DNA of 36,492 bases from Clostridia bacterium (GTDB lineage Bacteria > Bacillota > Clostridia > Oscillospirales > CAG-272): contig JAFYOX010000068.1 of NCBI GenBank assembly GCA_017547755.1, positions 1 to 36,492 of the forward strand. Direction: 5' to 3'. Below are positions 12,841-31,404 of the stretch, piece after piece (position 1 is the first letter of the stretch; each line of letters starts with the position of its first letter). The notes beneath the pieces are model-generated. The model worked only from the letters and a program-made list of their open reading frames with translations. It did not search any database and had not been told where the DNA came from. The translations under genes and the position numbers were made by a program.

Positions 12841-13168
12841 TGAACAAGCAAGAATAACTCGTGAATCAAGGCCATACCAGCCGGGGGAGCAGCGGGTCCC
12901 TGTACTCGAAGTCCGCTACAGCGAGGGTGGATTCCCGTTCCGAGGCTTGAGCTTGCGTAGTCTGTATTGTACGGACCGTGTTGACGAATGGGTCCTGCGC
13001 GATGGGCAGCTGTGAACCATGTCAGGTGGGGAACCAAGCAGCATTAAGCAGTGTTGGTCCATGTGCCGCAGGGCAGCCTGTTCTGAGCGGAAACTACAAT
13101 GTCGTGCGTGATCCTCAGGTCGAAGTTCGGGTGTATGGTCTTGATTTGCGGGTTATTCTTATCTTGTC
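12841..13168 (+). ncRNA. ffs: Signal recognition particle RNA, large (Firmicutes) type
   Basis: The 5' segment CAAGAATAACTCGTGAATCA... (12849-12878) pairs with the 3' segment ending GGGTTATTCTTATCTTG (13133-13166), giving the long terminal helix. Domain IV, the Ffh-binding hairpin, is present: ATGTCAGGTGG, the GGAA tetraloop (13030-13033), then CCAAGCAGCATTAAGCAG. An Alu-like domain occupies the 5' third. The RNA joins Ffh to target membrane proteins co-translationally. At ~325 nt it is somewhat longer than the ~270 nt of Bacillus. It precedes dnaX, the standard Firmicutes order. Ends are estimated from pairing. No separate terminator is clear before dnaX, so some transcripts may continue into it. 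Confidence 0.92.
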
Positions 13169-14869: not shown

Positions 14870-15226
14870 ATGAAAGCAAGATTACCCAAGGGTGTCGGCG
14901 CCGGCCAGCCCAATATGCAGAGCATGATCAAGCAGGCTCAGAAGATGCAGGAAGACATGACCAATCTTCAGGAAGACCTCGACGCACGCGAATACGAAGT
15001 AAACGCAGGCGGCGGTGTTGTTACCGTGAAGATCAACGGCAAGATGGAAATCCTCTCCATCGACATCAAGCCGGAAGTTGTTGATCCCGATGACATCGAA
15101 ACCATGTCCGACATTCTCGTTGCTGCTGTAAACGAAGCAATCAAGAAGGTCAGCGAAATCAACAGCACCGAAATGGGCAAGATCACCGGCGGTCTCAACG
15201 TCCCCGGCCTCAGCGGTCTGCTTTAA
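14870..15226 (+). CDS. ebfC: YbaB/EbfC family nucleoid-associated protein
   Basis: 118 residues. An N-terminal basic segment is followed by the family's helix MQSMIKQAQKMQEDM, then the beta core YEVNAGGGVVTVKINGKMEI, DIKPEVVDPDD and helix DILVAAVNEAIKKVSE, and a Gly/Leu-rich tail. It forms dimers that bind DNA with little specificity. AAAGGCGGT precedes the ATG. Its place between dnaX and recR is conserved across bacteria. Codons favour GTT, GCA and AAG, as in abundant proteins. The N-terminal segment (ARLPKGVGAG) is longer than in E. coli. Confidence 0.95.
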   Translation: MKARLPKGVGAGQPNMQSMIKQAQKMQEDMTNLQEDLDAREYEVNAGGGVVTVKINGKMEILSIDIKPEVVDPDDIETMSDILVAAVNEAIKKVSEINSTEMGKITGGLNVPGLSGLL

Positions 15227-15251
15227 TTTATAGTTTATAGATTCTGTTTGT

Positions 15252-15284
15252 TCGGGGAAAAACCTTCAAAAAGTTTTTCCCCGA
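15252..15284 (+). repeat. Palindromic repeat copy A (CGGGGAAAAAC family)
   Basis: Perfect 12-bp stem TCGGGGAAAAAC/GTTTTTCCCCGA (15252-15263 with 15273-15284), 9-nt loop, no head motif. It lies in the ebfC-recR gap 22 nt before ATG 15307, so it may attenuate or insulate recR transcription. Confidence 0.85.
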
Positions 15285-15306
15285 TTTTCATAAAAAGGAG
15301 ACTCCC

Positions 15307-15909
15307 ATGGCTGAAACGCTTGAACCTCTCGAGAGACTGACGGATATGTTCCGTAAGCTGGACGGCGTCGGCAAAAAGTCGGCGGCGCGGTATGCGTTCT
15401 GTGTTCTGAACTTCTCCGAACAGGAAGCACGCGATTTCGCGGAAGCGATCCTCGCGGCAAAAACGGAGATCCGTAAATGCTCGGTCTGCTGCAATATCAC
15501 GACCGGCGAAAAGTGCAAAATCTGCGAATCCCCTGCCCGCGATCATTCGATCGTCTGTGTGGTGGAAGACCCGCGTGCGGTGATGGCCATCGAAAAAACC
15601 CGTCAGTACAACGGCGTCTACCACGTCCTGCACGGAACCATCTCTCCGATGCGCGGCGTTACGCCGGATAAACTCACCATCCGCGAACTCCTCGCACGCC
15701 TGAACAATTCCGCTGTCAGCGAACTCATCCTCGCAACCAATCCCACCGTGGAAGGCGAAGCGACCGCCATGTACATCGCACGTCTCGCCTCTCCGCTCGG
15801 CGTCAAAGTCACCCGTATCGCCAACGGCGTTCCCGTCGGCGGTGACCTCGAATACGCCGACGAAGTCACCCTCCGCCGAGCCATGGAGGGGAGATATTCG
15901 ATCAATTGA
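15307..15909 (+). CDS. recR: Recombination mediator protein RecR
   Basis: 200 residues, the standard length. It contains the helix-hairpin-helix region LDGVGKKSAARYAF, the C4 zinc finger with Cys58, Cys61, Cys70 and Cys73, the Toprim domain beginning IVCVVEDPRAVMAIE (Glu87, Asp88), and the GTISPMRGVTPDKL loop. It works with RecO and RecF to load RecA on gapped DNA. AAAAGGAG lies 7 nt before the ATG. It is third in the dnaX-ebfC-recR series but separated from ebfC by palindromic repeat A. The composite inverted repeat begins 9 nt after its stop. Confidence 0.97.
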   Translation: MAETLEPLERLTDMFRKLDGVGKKSAARYAFCVLNFSEQEARDFAEAILAAKTEIRKCSVCCNITTGEKCKICESPARDHSIVCVVEDPRAVMAIEKTRQYNGVYHVLHGTISPMRGVTPDKLTIRELLARLNNSAVSELILATNPTVEGEATAMYIARLASPLGVKVTRIANGVPVGGDLEYADEVTLRRAMEGRYSIN

Positions 15910-15917
15910 ATTTTTTC

Positions 15918-15951
15918 CGGGGAAAAACTTTTTGAAAAAAGTTTTTCCCCG
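15918..15951 (-). repeat. Palindromic repeat copy B (inverted orientation)
   Basis: 15-bp perfect stem CGGGGAAAAACTTTT/AAAAGTTTTTCCCCG (15918-15932 with 15937-15951) and 4-nt loop. Its head motif lies to the right, so it points the opposite way to copies C-E. As part of the composite element it probably also ends recR transcription. Confidence 0.85.
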
Positions 15952-16107
15952 ACTTGCTTTGCAAGTCGGAGCCGGACACCCTTTTCAAAAACTTTCAAAC
16001 GATAAGTATAGACAAAGCAAGTGCAAATCTGAAGGAATAAAACAGCTGTATAGCTTACAGAAATTTTATTTCTTCAAATCTGCACTTTCTTTGTTGTAGT
16101 TATTGTC

Positions 16108-16161
16108 TGAAGTTTTTTGGAAAGGGTTCGGGAAAACCTTTTTGCAAAAAGGTTTTCCCGA
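16108..16161 (+). repeat. Palindromic repeat copy C with head motif
   Basis: Head GAAGTTTTTTGGAAAGGG, followed by a perfect 16-bp stem TCGGGAAAACCTTTTT/AAAAAGGTTTTCCCGA (16128-16143 with 16146-16161) around 2 nt. It ends 5 nt from the stop of the YhhN gene and likely folds at the end of that transcript. Confidence 0.85.
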
Positions 16162-16166
16162 GAACC

Positions 16167-16793
16167 TCACCCGCAGATAATAATAAAGATCTGACCGATC
16201 GGGTAGAACCACCAGATGGCGTCCTGCAGAGCCGGTGTGGTGTAGCCCATCAGGCGGTCGATGCCGATGATGTAGTCGGAGATGAAGAACGACAGCGCAC
16301 CGAGTGCCGCGAGGGAACGCCAGCTGCGGATCGACCATGAGTAGGAGAAGATCGTTGCGCAGGCAAGACCGATGATGCACATATACGACAGGCAGAGGAC
16401 GTACATGGCGATGCTTGCGTTTTTGTCCCGGAGAGAGAGAACGGTAACGATCAGCCCCGCCAGAAGGATCACGCCGGCCGCCGTCCAGAAGCCGGGATTG
16501 ATGTACTTGAATCCGTGTTCACGGATGAGCGTGAGATAGCCGCCCGTGTACAGAAAATGCGCGATGATGAAGAATCCGGCGCCGACGAAAAAATACGGTA
16601 CGGGCATCTTGTTCCCGATCCCGCGGAAGTTCATCAGAACGATGTCCCCGAGGCTCGACATGATCATCGCCGCGAGACACCACCAGCGGTCCTTCGTCCG
16701 GAAACAGAGCGCAAGCACCAGCGCCAGCAGCGACATCAGAACAGTCAGAACAAACGATCCGGGAAGCCCGAACCAGCGAAAAAAGTTATTCAT
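16167..16793 (-). CDS. YhhN family integral membrane protein (lysoplasmalogenase-like)
   Basis: 208 residues with about eight hydrophobic segments. The family's polar membrane residues appear as SSLGDIVLM in an early helix, and as F-F-I-S-D-Y-I-I-G-I-D-R, which aligns with the conserved Ser-Asp of YhhN/TMEM86. TMEM86 members hydrolyse the vinyl ether bond of lysoplasmalogens; bacterial YhhN function is mostly unproven. I chose ATG 16793 (MNNFFRWFG), preceded by AGAGGA. The frame opens further upstream to 16877, but those codons are simply repeat copy D translated. It follows the aldo/keto reductase gene on the same strand with copy D between them. Confidence 0.8.
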   Translation of the reverse strand: MNNFFRWFGLPGSFVLTVLMSLLALVLALCFRTKDRWWCLAAMIMSSLGDIVLMNFRGIGNKMPVPYFFVGAGFFIIAHFLYTGGYLTLIREHGFKYINPGFWTAAGVILLAGLIVTVLSLRDKNASIAMYVLCLSYMCIIGLACATIFSYSWSIRSWRSLAALGALSFFISDYIIGIDRLMGYTTPALQDAIWWFYPIGQIFIIICG

Positions 16794-16805
16794 AAAAATC
16801 CTCTT

Positions 16806-16867
16806 GTCTGAAAAGGTTTTGGGAAAGGGTTCGGGGAAACCTTTTTCCTCAAAAAAGGTTTCCCCGA
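16806..16867 (+). repeat. Palindromic repeat copy D with head motif
   Basis: Head GTCTGAAAAGGTTTTGGGAA (16806-16825) shortly before a perfect 16-bp stem TCGGGGAAACCTTTTT/AAAAAGGTTTCCCCGA (16831-16846 with 16852-16867) with a 5-nt loop. It lies between the aldo/keto reductase stop (16886) and the YhhN start (16793), so in the YhhN leader or as an intercistronic terminator. The first stem pairs GAAACC/GGTTTC instead of GAAAAC/GTTTTC, a compensated change. Confidence 0.85.
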
Positions 16868-16885
16868 AAAAGTTCATTTACCAAT

Positions 16886-18022
16886 TCATCTCATTTCTTC
16901 GTCAGCCTGCTTCAGCTTTTCGATGATCGGGAGCTGCTGCGGGCAGACACCTTCGCAGGCACCGCATTCGATGCACTTGTCCGCTGCGTGTTCATCTGCG
17001 ATGACCTTCTTGTAGCGGCCGTTTTCCTTCAGCTTGGAGCCGTAGAGGTTCAGGTCGTTCCAGATGGAGAAGATGCGCGGGATGTCAACGTCGTTCGGGC
17101 ACGGCATGCAGTAACGGCAGCCGGTACAGCCGATCTTGGTACGGCTGTTGTACGCGTCGCGTACCTTTGCGATGAGTTCTTCTTCTTCCGCGGTCATGCA
17201 GCCGATTTCACAGCGATCGAAAATTGCGAGGTTGTCGTCGCACTGTTCCATGTTGGTGATGCCGGAAAGAACCGTTGCAACTTCCGGCTGGCTGCAGAGC
17301 CAGCGGAACGCCCATTCCACGGGAGAACGCTTCACCGGGAATGCGTCGTACAGAGCCTGTACATTGTCCGGAGCCTTTGCCAGCTTGCCGCCGAGAAGAC
17401 CTTCCATGATAACGACCGGAATACCCTTTTCGCCGGCATACTTCATGCCCTTGAGGGTCGCCTGATTGTCGATATCCATGTAGTTCATCTGGATCTGGCA
17501 CATATCCCAGTCGTAGGAATCGATGATATCGATGAAGGTGTCGTAACCGTCGTGGAAGGAGAAGCACGCATACTTGATCTTGCCTTCCGCCTTTGCCTTG
17601 TCGAGGAATTCGCGGATGCCGAGATCGCGGATCTTTTCCCAGCTGCCCTTGTTCAGCGCGTGAACGAGATAGAAGTCGATGTAATCGGTTTCAAGATTTG
17701 CAAGCTGTTCGCCGAGAAGACGGTCCATGTCTTCGCGGGTGTTGCACGCCCAGGTCGGGAGCTTGGTCGCAACATATACCTTTTCGCGGTAGCCGTCACG
17801 GAGCGCGTGTGCGAGCATCATTTCGTTCTTCTGACCGGAATATACGTACGCGGTATCCATGTAGTTTACGCCGCTGTCGATCGCATGGCGGATCACGGGA
17901 GTGGAAATGGATTCATCGACAACTTCCGTACCGTCTTCGAGCTTGATCATCGGGAAACGCATGCATCCCATACCGAATGCGGATACTTCGATGCCGAGTT
18001 TGCCCATCTTTCTGTATTTCAT
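16886..18022 (-). CDS. Aldo/keto reductase with C-terminal 2x[4Fe-4S] ferredoxin domain
   Basis: 378 residues. The AKR barrel carries the tetrad Asp56, Tyr61, Lys87 and His121 (YMDTAYVYSG, ATKLP, FYLVHALN). From about residue 299 it has two clusters of ferredoxin-type cysteines: Cys299, 302, 305 and 308 (CTGCRYCMPCP), and Cys350, 353, 356 and 360 (CIECGACEGVCP). This AKR-ferredoxin architecture is common in anaerobic Clostridia and may couple NAD(P)H and ferredoxin-type electron flow. The start is ATG 18022 (MKYRKMGKLG) with GGAGAA upstream; an in-frame ATG at 18052 lacks a site. Its promoter is at 18061-18089. Substrate unknown. Confidence 0.93.
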   Translation of the reverse strand: MKYRKMGKLGIEVSAFGMGCMRFPMIKLEDGTEVVDESISTPVIRHAIDSGVNYMDTAYVYSGQKNEMMLAHALRDGYREKVYVATKLPTWACNTREDMDRLLGEQLANLETDYIDFYLVHALNKGSWEKIRDLGIREFLDKAKAEGKIKYACFSFHDGYDTFIDIIDSYDWDMCQIQMNYMDIDNQATLKGMKYAGEKGIPVVIMEGLLGGKLAKAPDNVQALYDAFPVKRSPVEWAFRWLCSQPEVATVLSGITNMEQCDDNLAIFDRCEIGCMTAEEEELIAKVRDAYNSRTKIGCTGCRYCMPCPNDVDIPRIFSIWNDLNLYGSKLKENGRYKKVIADEHAADKCIECGACEGVCPQQLPIIEKLKQADEEMR

Positions 18023-18060
18023 GATAATTCTCCAATCTGTGCAAAAATTCACATGATATC

Positions 18061-18089
18061 ATTGTACCTGTAAAATTTCATTTTGTCAA
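18061..18089 (-). promoter_or_regulatory. Sigma-A promoter of the aldo/keto reductase gene
   Basis: Minus strand TTGACA (18084-18089), 17 nt, TACAAT (18061-18066), about 40 nt upstream of ATG 18022. Confidence 0.85.
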
Positions 18090-18135
18090 GATATTTTTAA
18101 ATTTAAATGCTGTTGATTTATTTTTGTTGCAATCT

Positions 18136-18176
18136 GCAAAAATATGCGGCAGAAAACCGTCGTTTTTGCCGCATAT
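18136..18176 (-). terminator. Rho-independent terminator of the lipoprotein gene
   Basis: 10-bp stem ATATGCGGCA/TGCCGCATAT (18142-18151 with 18167-18176), followed on the minus strand by TTTTTG. It lies 16 nt after the lipoprotein stop and just ahead of the reductase promoter. Confidence 0.85.
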
Positions 18177-18191
18177 AATCATGAAATAAAA

Positions 18192-18611
18192 TTATTCCGC
18201 AAACAGATTTTCGAGATAAACCGTGTCCACGCCGAACGTGATCGCCTTGTACGTATATTCCCCGATCACATAGGACGAACCGGAAAGTACGTAGATCACC
18301 GTGTCGCCGTCGAGTGCGTGGAACGTGACCGTGAACAGTACGCCGTCCGCCGGTACACCGCTTCCCTTCTTGCGGGTACACTGTACACCTTCAAAGATCA
18401 TACGGATATTGTCCTGCATCTTCGGATCGGTATATTCGATCGACTCACCGGTCGCTCCGTTCTGCACCGTCACCTTTTCCACGTGCGGATACTGCGTTGA
18501 AATGTCGATCAGTTCCGGAATGATGTCGTCAAGAAAATAGTCCGACGCGCAACCGGTCAGGAGAAGTACGGCAAACAGCGCTGCCAGCAGAATTCCAAAA
18601 TTTCGTTTCAT
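18192..18611 (-). CDS. Small predicted lipoprotein of unknown function
   Basis: 139 residues. The N terminus MKRNFGILLAALFAVLLLTG-C is a signal peptide with a lipobox (Leu-Leu-Thr-Gly-Cys21), so the mature ~119-residue protein should be lipidated at Cys21 and held on the outer face of the membrane. The mature part has alternating beta-strand patterns (KVTVQNG, GVLFTVTFHALDGDTVIYVL) but no motif I recognise. The start is ATG 18611: GAGGAGG is 6 nt away, while the in-frame ATG at 18617 abuts the site. It has its own promoter (18642-18670) and terminator, and is divergent from polA. Confidence 0.8.
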   Translation of the reverse strand: MKRNFGILLAALFAVLLLTGCASDYFLDDIIPELIDISTQYPHVEKVTVQNGATGESIEYTDPKMQDNIRMIFEGVQCTRKKGSGVPADGVLFTVTFHALDGDTVIYVLSGSSYVIGEYTYKAITFGVDTVYLENLFAE

Positions 18612-18641
18612 ATGCATCCTCCTCATTTTTGTTCTACAAAT

Positions 18642-18670
18642 ATTATACAATAGATTTTCCGCTATTGCAA
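18642..18670 (-). promoter_or_regulatory. Sigma-A promoter of the lipoprotein gene
   Basis: Minus strand TTGCAA (18665-18670), 17 nt, TATAAT (18642-18647). Confidence 0.85.
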
Positions 18671-18721
18671 GATAAAAAAAGCAAATATTCTTAAAATTCT
18701 GTTTTCTTTGCCATCGCATTA

Positions 18722-18730
18722 TGCTATAAT
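18722..18730 (+). promoter_or_regulatory. Extended -10 promoter of polA
   Basis: TGC-TATAAT, an extended -10 with no good -35. A start near 18737 would place all of palindromic repeat E in the polA leader. Confidence 0.6.
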
Positions 18731-18740
18731 TTAAATAGTA

Positions 18741-18799
18741 TTAAAAGGTTTTGGAAAGGGGTTCGGGGAAAATCTTTTCCTCAAAAAGGTTTTCCCCGA
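18741..18799 (+). repeat. Palindromic repeat copy E with head motif, in the polA leader
   Basis: Head TTAAAAGGTTTTGGAAAGGG (18741-18760), then a 16-nt arm TCGGGGAAAATCTTTT (18763-18778) pairing with AAAAGGTTTTCCCCGA (18784-18799) with one wobble. It ends 15 nt before the polA ATG. Confidence 0.85.
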
Positions 18800-18814
18800 G
18801 AAACTTTATTTCTC

Positions 18815-21331
18815 ATGAAAAAATTCCTCATTATCGACGGAAACAGCATCGTCAACCGCGCGTTTTACGGGATCCGTCCGCTTTCCACGAAAGACGGACT
18901 GCCCACCAACGCCGTATACGGCCTGCTGACGATCCTGAAAAAACATCTCGACGCGCTGGAACCGGATTATATCGCCTGCGCCTTCGACGTGCATCAGCCG
19001 ACCTTCCGCCACCTTACCTATGCGGATTACAAGGGAAACCGCAAGGGGATGCCGGACGAGCTCAAGGCACAGATGCCCTACGCAAAGCGCGCCGTCGCCG
19101 GACTCGGCTTTGAAGTGATCGAATGTCCCGGATGGGAAGCGGACGACGTCATCGGCACCGCCGCACAGATGGCACGCGACCACGGCGGCATCGAAACCTA
19201 CATCCTCACCGGGGACCGCGACTCCCTCCAGCTGATCGACCCGACCACCACGGTCATTCTCGCTAAAACCAAGGAAGACGTCCTCTTCACCGAAGAAAAA
19301 TTCGCCGAAGAATACGGCATCACGCCCGGTCAGTTTGTGGACGTCAAGGCTCTCATGGGCGACTCGTCCGACAATATCCCCGGCGTTGCGGGCATCGGTG
19401 AAAAAACCGCACTGAAGCTCATCCAGACCGCCGGTTCTCTCGACGCCCTCTACGGCGACCGCGAAAACAATTATTTCAAGCAGACCGCCGGTACCGTCAA
19501 AAAACTGGAAGCCGGCGAAGAAAGCGCGTATCTTTCCCGTGATCTCGCACGGATCCGCCGCGACGCGCCGATCCTTTCGAAAGACGAACTCTTCCGTACC
19601 CGTCCGACGGACAAGACCGCACTCATCGATCTGTTCGGTGAACTTGAATTCACCGGCATGACCAAGCGCTTCGGACTCGAGGAAGAAACCGCAGAGGAAA
19701 CGGCGGAAATCCCGCTCACCGAAGCCGCTTCCGTCGGCGGACTGCACTTTGATGCACCGGCCGCCCTCGTTTACGATGCGGAAAACAACCAGATCACGCT
19801 CTGCACGGGCACCGAAACGATCGTCTGCCGGAATGCCGATCCCGACGATGCGGCCGCATTCCTGCGCGGAAACCGGATCATCTGCCACGATTTCAAGGGA
19901 CTTCTCCGTTCCCTGCATATCGACGGCCATGCCGTTGACTGCGTGTACGACACCATGCTGGCAGCGTACCTGCTCAACTCCGGCGGCGGCAAGTTCGGTC
20001 TGAACGTCATCGCGGAACAATACCTCAAAATGAGCGAGATCAAACCGGACAGTGCAGCGTATACCGTCTATCGCCTGTATGAAACGACCTCTCCCCTGCT
20101 TGAGGAAACCGGTATGACCTCCCTCATGCACGACATCGAGATCCCGCTGTCGAAGGTTCTTGCCTCCATGGAAGAAACCGGTTTCAAGATCAATCCGATC
20201 GGCATCAAACAGTACGCGGACGACCTGTTCGTCGCGGAAAACGCGCTGGCCGATGCCATCTGGGCACAGGCGGGACACCAGTTCAATATCAACTCTCCGA
20301 AACAGCTCGGCGAAGTCCTGTTCGAAGAGATCGGACTTCCGTCCGGCAAGAAGACCAAGACCGGCTACTCCACCGACGCGGAAACCCTCGAAGACCTCCG
20401 TCCGTACCACAGCATCATCGGCGATATTCTTCTCTACCGTCAGACCGCCAAGCTGCGCGGCACCTATGGGGATCCGCTGATCGCCTTCGCGGACGAAAAC
20501 GGACGCATCCATACGAAACTCAATCAGGTCGGTACGGCGACCGGACGTCTCGCATCGAGCGACCCGAACCTGCAGAACATCCCCGTCCGCGCGGAAATGG
20601 GACGCGAACTGCGGAAATACTTCATCGCGGACGACGGCTGTGTCCTCATCGACGCGGACTATTCCCAGATCGAACTGCGTCTTCTCGCCGCTCTTTCCGG
20701 CGACGAAGCAATGAGCGAAGCCTTTATCAACGGCTGCGACATCCACACCGCCGTCGCGGCACAGGTGTTCGGCGTGGACGAAGACGAAGTAACGCCCGAA
20801 CTGCGCCGCCGTGCAAAGGCGGTCAATTTCGGCATCGTCTACGGCATCGGGGAATTCTCCCTCTCGAAAGACCTCGGCATCACCCGCCGTCAGGCGAAGG
20901 AGTACATCGACAATTACCTCCGCACGTATTACGGCGTCGACGCCTACCTCAAGCAGACCATCGAAACGGCGAAGGAACAGGGATACACGACCACCCTCTT
21001 CGGCAGACGTCGGTACATTCCGGAGCTGAAATCCACCAACCGGAATCTGCGCGCGTTCGGCGAACGTGTGGCGATGAACAGCCCGATCCAGGGAACGGCG
21101 GCGGACGTCATCAAAATCGCGATGATCCGCGTGGACAAAGCCCTGCGCGAAGCCGGGATCGACGCCCGACTGATCATGCAGGTACACGACGAACTGATCG
21201 TGGAAGCGCACGAAAGCTGCGCGGATCAGGCGTCGGAGATCCTCGTACGCGAAATGGAAAACGCCGTGAAGACCACCGTTCCGCTGACCGCCGACGGCGG
21301 CATGGGCACGAGCTGGTATGAAGCGAAGTAA
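18815..21331 (+). CDS. polA: DNA polymerase I (5'-3' exonuclease plus polymerase; proofreading site degenerate)
   Basis: 838 residues. The N-terminal 5'-3' exonuclease (about 1-290) has LIIDGNS, AFD, GWEADDVIGT, TGDRDSLQL and GDSSDNIPG. The central 3'-5' exonuclease-like domain (about 310-430) lacks the catalytic acids: DAENN stands near the DxE motif, HDFKGLL lacks the exo II Asp, and the exo III Tyr-x3-Asp is absent. The polymerase has motif A DADYSQIELR (Asp615), motif B RRRAKAVNFGIVYG and motif C MQVHDELIVEA (Asp792). It repairs gaps and removes Okazaki primers. No Shine-Dalgarno is evident; the ATG follows repeat copy E closely. The DUF4838 gene lies 24 nt downstream. Confidence 0.98.
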   Translation: MKKFLIIDGNSIVNRAFYGIRPLSTKDGLPTNAVYGLLTILKKHLDALEPDYIACAFDVHQPTFRHLTYADYKGNRKGMPDELKAQMPYAKRAVAGLGFEVIECPGWEADDVIGTAAQMARDHGGIETYILTGDRDSLQLIDPTTTVILAKTKEDVLFTEEKFAEEYGITPGQFVDVKALMGDSSDNIPGVAGIGEKTALKLIQTAGSLDALYGDRENNYFKQTAGTVKKLEAGEESAYLSRDLARIRRDAPILSKDELFRTRPTDKTALIDLFGELEFTGMTKRFGLEEETAEETAEIPLTEAASVGGLHFDAPAALVYDAENNQITLCTGTETIVCRNADPDDAAAFLRGNRIICHDFKGLLRSLHIDGHAVDCVYDTMLAAYLLNSGGGKFGLNVIAEQYLKMSEIKPDSAAYTVYRLYETTSPLLEETGMTSLMHDIEIPLSKVLASMEETGFKINPIGIKQYADDLFVAENALADAIWAQAGHQFNINSPKQLGEVLFEEIGLPSGKKTKTGYSTDAETLEDLRPYHSIIGDILLYRQTAKLRGTYGDPLIAFADENGRIHTKLNQVGTATGRLASSDPNLQNIPVRAEMGRELRKYFIADDGCVLIDADYSQIELRLLAALSGDEAMSEAFINGCDIHTAVAAQVFGVDEDEVTPELRRRAKAVNFGIVYGIGEFSLSKDLGITRRQAKEYIDNYLRTYYGVDAYLKQTIETAKEQGYTTTLFGRRRYIPELKSTNRNLRAFGERVAMNSPIQGTAADVIKIAMIRVDKALREAGIDARLIMQVHDELIVEAHESCADQASEILVREMENAVKTTVPLTADGGMGTSWYEAK

Positions 21332-30492: not shown

Positions 30493-31302
30493 TCAGAGGA
30501 GCCGCTCAAGTTTATACTCCGCTTCGTCATCCCCCTGTTCGGCAGCTTTGCGGTACCATCGGATTGCCTCCTCTTTATCCATCGGCACGCCGTTTCCCTC
30601 CAGATAACAATCGCCAAGAACACACTGTGCTTCTGTACTGCCCTGCTCTGCGGCTTTCCGGAACCACTGGAGCCCCGCATCATTGTAATATTTTGCCAGC
30701 TTTTGCATCGCTTTCGGAAATCCCATCCCGGCAGCTTTCCGATAACACTCCACAGCCGCTTCATCGTCAGGCTCCGCACGGATTCCCTTCTCATACCATG
30801 TGAGTGCTTCCGCTGAGTCAGCCGTTTTCCACGATTTCATATATATGGGATCTGTTGCTTTCTCATACCACGGACAGGATATATCATTGAAATAATAGAT
30901 TCCCAAATCGAACATTGCCTGCACATGCCCCATTTCTGCCGCTTTCAGGTACCATCGAATCGCTTCTTCCTTGTCCTTTTCTGCTCCTCTGCCATAATCA
31001 TAACACTTGGCGAGGGTATATGCCGCTTCCATATGGCCCATATCGGCCGCTTCGCGGTACCACCGGATCGCTTCCGTTTCATCACATTCCACGCCGTTTC
31101 CCCACCTGTAGCATTCTCCCAGAGAATACGCCGCTTCCATATGGCCCATATCGGCCGCTTCGCGGTACCACCGGATCGCTTCCGTTTCATCACATTCCAC
31201 GCCGTTTCCCCACCTGTAGCATTCTCCCAGAGAATACGCCGCTTCCGCATCTCCCTGTACCGCCGCTTCGAAGTATCTTTTTACATCTTTATTCCTTTCC
31301 AT
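30493..31302 (-). CDS. Sel1-like repeat (TPR-like) protein
   Basis: 269 residues from ATG 31302, with GAAAGG 7 nt upstream; an in-frame ATG at 31317 is possible. It consists of about six Sel1 repeats of ~36 residues (A-A-Y-S-L-G-E-C-Y-x-x-G-N-G-V-x-x-D-x-x-E-A-I-R-W-Y-R-E-A-A-D-M-G-H), the middle ones degenerate. Two adjacent repeats near residues 24-98 are identical in DNA and protein. Sel1 repeats form alpha solenoids that bind other proteins. No signal peptide, so it is probably a cytoplasmic scaffold; partner unknown. Base composition is more AT-rich than the flanking genes. Confidence 0.85.
   Translation of the reverse strand: MERNKDVKRYFEAAVQGDAEAAYSLGECYRWGNGVECDETEAIRWYREAADMGHMEAAYSLGECYRWGNGVECDETEAIRWYREAADMGHMEAAYTLAKCYDYGRGAEKDKEEAIRWYLKAAEMGHVQAMFDLGIYYFNDISCPWYEKATDPIYMKSWKTADSAEALTWYEKGIRAEPDDEAAVECYRKAAGMGFPKAMQKLAKYYNDAGLQWFRKAAEQGSTEAQCVLGDCYLEGNGVPMDKEEAIRWYRKAAEQGDDEAEYKLERLL
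31023..31246 (-). repeat. Exact tandem duplication of 108 bp inside the Sel1 gene
   Basis: Units 31023-31130 and 31131-31238 are identical base for base, with another 8 bp of match to 31246. The period equals one 36-residue Sel1 repeat, so the frame is kept. Confidence 0.95.
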
Positions 31303-31368
31303 CGTCATACCTTTCATTTTTCAATGCTAACTTCCCTGTCCGCACTTCCTAAGCCGCGGAACAAAGAT

Positions 31369-31404
31369 GCGGGGAAAAACTCTTTCCAAAAAGTTTTTCC
31401 CCGC
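31369..31404. repeat. Palindromic repeat copy F
   Basis: 13-bp stem GCGGGGAAAAACT/AGTTTTTCCCCGC (31369-31381 with 31392-31404) and 10-nt loop, no head motif. It lies 10 nt after the stop of the phosphodiesterase gene on the minus strand, so it may end that transcript. Confidence 0.85.

Follow-up and report, generated by a model that had tools for sequence, protein, structure and literature searches.

A dispersed gene-end element of gut Clostridia: two inverted, putatively triplex-forming hairpin units around a lineage-specific palindrome

The 244-bp intergenic region between recR and a YhhN-family gene (positions 15918-16161) appears to be one copy of a dispersed and largely vertically inherited 3′-end element, in which two inverted units, each a hairpin (H) followed by a tract (T) and predicted to be capable of triplex formation, surround a lineage-specific palindrome. 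We give this reading a probability of about 0.55. On our best reading the element would be a variant of the known intrastrand-triplex repeats of the PIT/BoxC type; BoxC, PIT and TM_ECO repeats are known, inverted pairs included (Holder et al. 2015, PMC4666352; this and the other papers given by PMC number are cited from excerpts). The comparative evidence is that the putative third strand has kept pace with its hairpin over many sequence changes, a pattern seen in several species and at shared genomic sites.

The composite in the window

The window, that is the whole stretch of DNA that was analysed, is the 36,492-nt contig C60 of our own genome (G000), a 3.05 Mb MAG. The composite, its neighbours and the other family members in the window are listed below, with scores against R2, a covariance model of H plus T made from 40 units.

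15307..15909, plus strand: recR, with Pfam RecR domains; its stop codon ends 8 nt before H1
15918..15951, plus strand: H1, left hairpin, with purine arm GGGGAAAAAC, T-run, loop, A-run and GTTTTTCCCC
15949..15969, plus strand: extra stem-loop within the 3′ side of H1, enclosed by outer CCGG pairs (from the fold)
15979..15995, plus strand: T1, mirror tract, CCCTTTTC and then AAAAACTTT
16011..16095, no strand assigned: lineage-specific palindromic core, arms 16011-16042 and 16064-16095 with a small centre between them
16110..16126, minus strand: T2, mirror tract of the right unit, reading CCCTTTCC and then AAAAAACTT on the minus strand
16128..16161, minus strand: H2, right hairpin, with arm GGGAAAACC on the minus strand
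16167..16877, minus strand: YhhN-family gene (Pfam YhhN), convergent with recR; stop codon 5 nt from H2
16808..16867, minus strand: solitary H-T unit after an aldo/keto reductase gene; R2 match of 72.1 bits
18740..18799, minus strand: solitary H-T unit with arm GGGGAAAACC and tract CCCCTTTCC; R2 match of 73.1 bits; folded
31368..31404, minus strand: solitary family hairpin, H part only; R2 match of 34.8 bits

The first-pass annotation had described 15918-16161 as a composite inverted repeat, and the palindromes at 15918-15951 and 16128-16161 together with the two inner arms bear this out. For the 257-nt segment 15910-16166 the predicted folding energy is -123 kcal/mol, whereas shuffles average -55.5 (sd 4.8; z -14.06) and none of the 200 equalled it. 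RNA folding left T unpaired in all three window units that were folded; at two other loci (L297 and L273) T takes part in a second hairpin, and in the fold of the L299 stretch a second hairpin lies next to H.

The extra stem-loop of the left hairpin at 15949-15969 had escaped the earlier annotation. Across the composite loci a script flags such a stem-loop between H and T at 17 of 148 hairpin sites, one of which (G000_C22) we judge to be a different arrangement, leaving 16. These inserts are ~25 nt long and lie between H and T or within the 3′ arm of H; their sequence varies by copy and the pairing is kept.

A search of the whole window against Rfam at gathering thresholds gave SRP RNA as the sole match, outside the composite. 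At 12872-13138 the window holds a large bacterial SRP RNA adjoining dnaX.

The hairpin is conserved as structure and the core mainly as sequence

Of the 95 full cores collected (see below), the 74 with full length and flanks entered the pairing tests. They offered 148 hairpin sites, of which 137 passed parsers that accept clean hairpins only; 131 were used in the arm test, 133 in the T parse and 120 in the T test. Units within one genome are kin, so that the z-scores given here overstate independence.

Within a copy the arms of H are Watson-Crick paired at 0.989, against 0.714 when arms were re-paired between copies (z 23; 131 hairpins, chosen as best palindromes). The sequences are diverse, 58 of 67 left hairpins being distinct, and an alignment of 40 units contained 99 cells with two-sided change against 36.3 after shuffling and a maximum of 42 in a slid register. 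G.U pairs are scarce in singly folded hairpins, with 9 of 2148 pairs in the composites and 4 of 650 in an independent set described below. Counting by fixed columns in the 40 aligned units gave 25 of 643 cells (our own sum), most of them an effect of shifted columns, because folding those units individually yields only 9 of 669. The arms are pure purine up to an end C in 115 of 120 composite and 34 of 40 independent units. Directly after the stem the consensus of 40 units reads GAACCCC, with no U-tract there; a loose tail rule flags two of the four family hairpins in 15000-19500.

The core gave a different picture. RNAalifold found no consensus pair in it, and pairing within a copy was 0.747 as compared with 0.745 in re-paired copies; the core arms alone showed a small gain (0.801 and 0.777, z 4.7). 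On these grounds we rejected the core as a structured RNA. Conservation of the core arms is stronger in sequence than in pairing, so the arms are probably protein-binding sites or remnants of whatever event created the inverted pair.

The tract mirrors the purine arm of its own hairpin

T follows a rule. It complements the purine 5′ arm of H in parallel (mirror) orientation, minus one base, and is followed by the arm's end-C count and then by an A-run. In the window T2 obeys the rule exactly for the arm GGGAAAACC, and CCCTTTTC of T1 has one C fewer than its arm predicts. The native units differ in arm, for example GGGGAAACC, GGGGAGGAAC and GGGGAGAGAAAC.

In the composites the length of the arm minus that of T was 1 in 112 of 120 units (r 0.945; the highest of 2000 shuffles reached 0.325). 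An independent set was drawn from four other genomes as 60 regions (20 from G034, 20 from G008, 14 from G023 and 6 from G018) taken from the upper R2 list, which hence resemble the model, although R2 itself encodes no link between T and H. Forty of the 60 gave clean units (13, 16, 5 and 6, respectively) and 20 were dropped. In this set the difference was 1 in 34 of 40 units, with arms of 7-14 and r 0.970. Leaving out six regions inside loci already analysed, of which three contain units already seen in an earlier look with a rigid pattern, gave 30 of 34 and r 0.976. That rigid pattern, applied to other loci, had given an r of only 0.667 for 23 units, partly because of truncated arms. Examples of arms and their tracts in the independent set are GGGGAGAGAAAC with CCCCTCTCTTC, GGGGGAAAGAAAC with CCCCCTTTCTTC and GGGGAGGGAGCC with CCCCTCCCTCC.

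The relation has an orientation. Scored against permuted T letters in the independent set, the parallel complement gave z 13.6, the reverse complement -8.9, a direct copy 0.4 and a reversed copy -1.3. For units of equal length a code with C opposite G and T opposite A beat shuffles with z 7.7 (120 units) and 4.5 (52 distinct types). The exact rule held in 19 of 40 independent units (tracts taken from other units gave a mean of 1.9 and a maximum of 7) and in 63 of 120 composite units (mean 11.4, maximum 22); within one mismatch it held in 33 of 40 and 103 of 120. Two figures count against the rule, namely its exact fit per distinct type, at only 15 of the 52 in composites and 16 of the 36 in the independent set, and the weak correlation between the A-run of T and the T-run of H in the composites (r 0.345; 0.80 in the independent set). 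The end-C count is equal in arm and T in 107 of 120 composite and 36 of 40 independent units.

Other partners for T were considered. T as the Watson-Crick partner of H was rejected, the reverse-complement score lying below that of permuted letters; the same score exceeds that of T from other units (z 5.7) because the lengths are coupled. Pairing of T with T′ across the core showed no co-change (0.854 and 0.855) and was likewise rejected. A Watson-Crick partner downstream of T gave a weak signal in G034 only of the four genomes (7.38 against 6.46, sd 0.35).

Copy number and distribution

Matches to the full stretch in the own genome numbered at least 113 on both strands, the best 40 of 300 candidates being scored. 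The fetched stretches contained 95 full cores, 33 in the own genome (the present one counted), 44 in G013 and 18 in G004, besides 24 partial cores. The annotation had named as its counter-case a sole composite with the same sequence here in distant relatives; the siblings in the own genome and in two sister species instead make this a dispersed family of composites rather than a single local structure. A core sequence model gave at least 150-153 matches per genome on both strands.

The composite is narrowly distributed. At E 1e-12 the core was matched in 3 of 25 genus genomes, and a core-arm pattern in 3 of 10 genomes tested, with no control matches. In a collection of 84,980 species, which may omit the own genome, the exact core-arm pattern was found only in the goat-caecum 'Clostridia bacterium' RGIG1778 and in 'Oscillospiraceae bacterium' SIG618.

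The half unit reaches further. R2 gave at least about 150 matches in each of G000, G004 and G013, and elsewhere 102 in G008, 67 in G018, 51 in G023, 48 in G034, which belongs to another genus, and 12 in G031. Altogether, R2 was matched in 22 of 36 genomes, 19 of them among the 33 non-carriers of the core; of these 19, nine have at least 7 matches and ten have 6 or fewer, some of them weak. As R2 matches extend to genomes without the core, the half unit is most simply taken to be wider and older than the composite, and the earlier suggestion that the composite is the parent from which the solitary half-copies derive does not fit these 19 genomes. The three core carriers are MAGs that are 70-75% complete, and most of the relatives are also incomplete; kinship, parser and MAG limits bear least on the independent genomes and on the comparison of orthologous sites.

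Each half stands behind a stop codon

A heuristic, simple codon-based caller gave both neighbours for 81 of the 95 full cores, of which 54 lie between convergent, 26 between tandem and 1 between divergent genes; 14 were incomplete. As a small yardstick, our own count found 5 convergent pairs among 25 neighbours within the window. In the convergent cases the stop codon lies, judged by eye, mostly 40-55 nt from the edge of the core model, which puts H ~5-15 nt past the stop codon.

For H-T matches with a gene called, taken from the window and from loci mostly of other species, the gene runs into H in 47 of 57, with its stop codon within 36 nt in 41 of these 47; a further 6 matches had no gene. 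Without the loci held twice (L036/L220, L037/L219 and L042/L241) the figures are 44 of 53 and 38 of 44. These placements show each half to be a gene-end unit with the order stop codon, hairpin H, tract T.

The three strands change together at orthologous sites

A flank in common with a sister-species composite was seen on at least one side for 22 of the 33 own copies and on both sides for 16; in two of the 22 the flanks look paralogous. The comparison covered 39 of 46 orthologous hairpin sides, the other 7 having no clean hairpin. Two-sided change was seen in 118 of 468 H pairs and one-sided change in 9, the corresponding counts for the control stretch T-core-T′ being 88 and 358 out of 1466; length changes partly shift the register, so that the two-sided H count is not a number of events.

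The tract could be followed on 32 orthologous sides. Where the arms are unlike, on 24 sides, T is unlike too in 23, and it is a better fit to its own arm than to that of the partner in 20, with 4 ties and none worse. The 8 sides with identical arms split evenly, 4 having one and the same T and 4 a different one, the latter counting against the coupling. The aligned sites show that both arms of H and T change together. This joint change could stem from exchange of whole units, which leaves the code itself unexplained. Orthologous cores are 0.776 identical, as compared with 0.72-0.73 for random pairs, and 5 of 22 orthologous pairs fit better with the core, itself palindromic, flipped.

The recR composite itself sits on a synteny break, since recR and yhhN lie apart in G004. 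There recR is followed by H and T with the core absent and other neighbours, and yhhN lies elsewhere with no H-T visible; in G013 the yhhN contig stops within the unit.

A proposed third strand on the hairpin

T does not Watson-Crick pair with the arm because the complement is parallel, and the third strand of an intrastrand triple helix follows just such a mirror code. In the model that we favour, two inverted H-T units, one for each of the convergent genes recR and yhhN, flank the palindromic core, and T would lie as the third strand on H. The triplex would belong to class III (pyrimidine motif) on the mRNA strand or to class I (purine motif) on the opposite DNA strand (terms as in PMC4666352). 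The rarity of G.U and the pure purine arm are features that a triplex would demand and a lone hairpin would not. The folded unit may end or protect the transcript, and the inverted pair may separate the convergent genes; from placement alone we infer such an end or cap role. Against it count the missing U-tract directly after H and the PIT elements of E. coli, closest to the present units in design, in which terminator activity was not seen (PMC4666352).

The likeness to PIT, BoxC and TM_ECO (PMC4666352) lies in a hairpin with a third strand, intergenic location, many copies, occasional inverted pairs and a mirror-code design. The homopurine arm in a Watson-Crick stem that characterises PIT elements is present, as is the third tract with triplex code, orientation and short loop, although the exact code is found only in the 19 of 40 and 63 of 120 units given above. 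The loop to the third strand is 3 nt in TM_ECO, and here the tract starts 0-4 nt after the stem. The differences from TM_ECO as described in the excerpt are several: it is of the purine motif (pyrimidine, purine, purine), whereas the mRNA strand here would be class III (purine, pyrimidine, pyrimidine); its sequence is near-constant, whereas here it varies with co-change of three strands; it has no strand bias or correlation with gene orientation, whereas the present units stand behind stop codons; and here the pairs are linked by a palindrome confined to the lineage.

Intrastrand triplexes of the pyrimidine motif are found in RNA, where those of the purine motif cannot form (PMC4666352). A tentative extension of our model is that hundreds of gut-Clostridia genes end in an RNA triple helix, the tract after the purine-armed hairpin lying in the major groove as a coded third strand and capping the 3′ end. 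Genes in convergent pairs would then bear two 3′ caps back to back, and the three-strand covariation would be comparative evidence of selection on a bacterial 3′-end triplex. Against this, we read the end C of T as a non-canonical pyrimidine-motif triplet on the mRNA strand. C+*G-C triplets also form only with protonated C, and four of them in a row are disfavoured.

RNA triple helices at the 3′ ends of eukaryotic and viral RNAs include those of the PAN ENE and MALAT1, in which U-rich stems take up an A-rich tail. If the RNA reading is right, the present units resemble them in that a third strand closes on a hairpin at the RNA 3′ end, and differ in having a G/A arm with a C/U tract and in occurring at many bacterial gene ends. 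Catalogues of intrastrand-triplex motifs exist for bacterial genomes; in vivo footprints do not support a stable triplex and earlier functional tests were without effect, as reported in the excerpt of PMC4666352. The narrow position of the units after the stop codon and their putative coded third strand make formation and action of a triplex in the cell directly testable. Among the open-licence PMC papers searched we found neither three-strand covariation nor a bacterial 3′-end triplex family, which does not prove their absence; the family may define a transcript-end signal that we did not come across in those papers.

Alternative explanations

The composite could be a plain bidirectional terminator or a pair of mRNA 3′-end hairpins, H working alone as in REP sequences and intrinsic terminators, with T a mere tail and the core padding. 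H lies close behind the stop codon, is strictly paired and is often placed between convergent genes, and intrinsic terminators (PMC5381666) share the stable hairpin soon past the stop codon, the compensatory evolution and the use by convergent genes. In the B. cereus terminators, where compensatory change is known, G.U is the most frequent intermediate (PMC5381666), however, whereas here it is almost lacking (9 of 2148 and 4 of 650). Nor does a terminator predict a tract that mirrors H, and the family further departs from intrinsic terminators (PMC5381666) in its coupled third tract and in the missing U-tract directly after the stem. It also has two separate hairpins, with a core of ~110 nt between the T tracts. 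We regard this explanation as rather doubtful.

A second alternative, to which we assign similarly low odds, keeps the mirror relation and moves it to DNA. The third strand would be the complement of T on the non-coding strand, in the purine motif, crossing strands at the end C, and would act in replication or recombination rather than in the mRNA. The end G and the T-run would also suit triplets on that strand, where the path of the third strand along the purines could continue past the end C. A synteny break coincides with one composite, and instability at such motifs is reported (PMC4666352). The units are mostly oriented to the stop codon of the upstream gene, however, which points to the transcript.

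The first-pass annotation had favoured a MITE, and a non-autonomous transposon recognised by a transposase at the core arms or the H units would account for several features: as MITEs generally are, the composites are dispersed, palindromic, non-coding, bounded by terminal inverted repeats and lineage-restricted, and the copy by recR sits on a synteny break. That part of the claim stands, and the part that would make it a classical MITE is not supported. Target duplication is at chance, the longest direct match at the flanks of 60 copies averaging 3.30 against 3.15 (sd 0.10) for re-paired flanks, with 1 abutting 4-mer against 0.43; direct flank matches of up to 7 and 11 nt occur at single copies. 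The closest cores within a genome are 0.859 (G000), 0.819 (G004) and 0.856 (G013) identical in the set of 74, which gives no sign of a recent burst, and many sites are old and common to the sister species. Spacing to the stop codon is narrow. The exact core-arm pattern had zero matches in viral contigs, and no transposase partner was found: the matches listed include no IS-sized pair of core arms, although in three MAGs that are 70-75% complete an autonomous partner could be missing from the data. We consider a MITE improbable.

REP/BIME or REPIN sequences mobilised by a RAYT-like gene of the own genome are a highly improbable source, since the only Y1_Tnp (RAYT-like) gene in their favour, 2.2 kb from one composite, has its own GTAG-type inverted palindrome pair downstream, the consensus H-T or core query matches none of ten Y1 loci, and the core carrier G013 (73% complete) has no Y1_Tnp match. 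The family is BIME-like in form, with short extragenic 3′-end palindromes that are single or in inverted pairs, some spacers conserved, and many copies between convergent genes (PMC2817692, PMC3733652). Unlike REP/BIME it showed no RAYT link and, in the consensus of 40 units inspected by eye, no GTAG or CGTC tag by the palindrome. The mirror third strand seen here is not described for REP/BIME in the excerpts of those two papers. The RAYT was rejected as mobiliser, having its own palindromes at the sole Y1 match of G000 and no family match in its locus.

Neighbouring elements

The RAYT-like Y1 transposase gene of the own genome and its downstream palindrome pair of the GTAG type, GTAGGGGCGATTCACGAATCGCCC, lie at ~1280-1430 and 1459-1977 of locus L131 (C89). 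A survey of GTAG repeats assigns such repeats to other phyla (PMC3733652, as excerpted). Locus L130 of G004 (C113) has, at ~1340-1990, a RAYT-like reading frame within which two GTAGGGACACGGC-type palindromes stand in inverted orientation.

One G004 composite (C119, ~2327-2515; loci L091 and L174) carries a 63-residue ribbon-helix-helix gene between T1 and the left core arm. The orthologous composite of G013 lacks this gene, and a relative in G000 (L175) lies elsewhere with no core in view. We rejected the gene as a part of the element, the core being unseen beside three orthologues (G000 C91, G009 and G016). Directly past the ribbon-helix-helix gene of L175 (G000 C91) is an inverted repeat, GGGGCTGTCGCAAAT...ATTTGCGACAGCCCC, perhaps a different miniature element.

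Downstream of recR in L098 (G004 C17) a separate inverted repeat around AGAAAATCGTCAGCGACCTCGTTACCTCGGC lies past the solitary H-T unit. In the window itself a Sel1-repeat gene with 108-bp repeats occupies 30509-31275, and two adjacent copies of its repeat are 97% identical at the DNA level.
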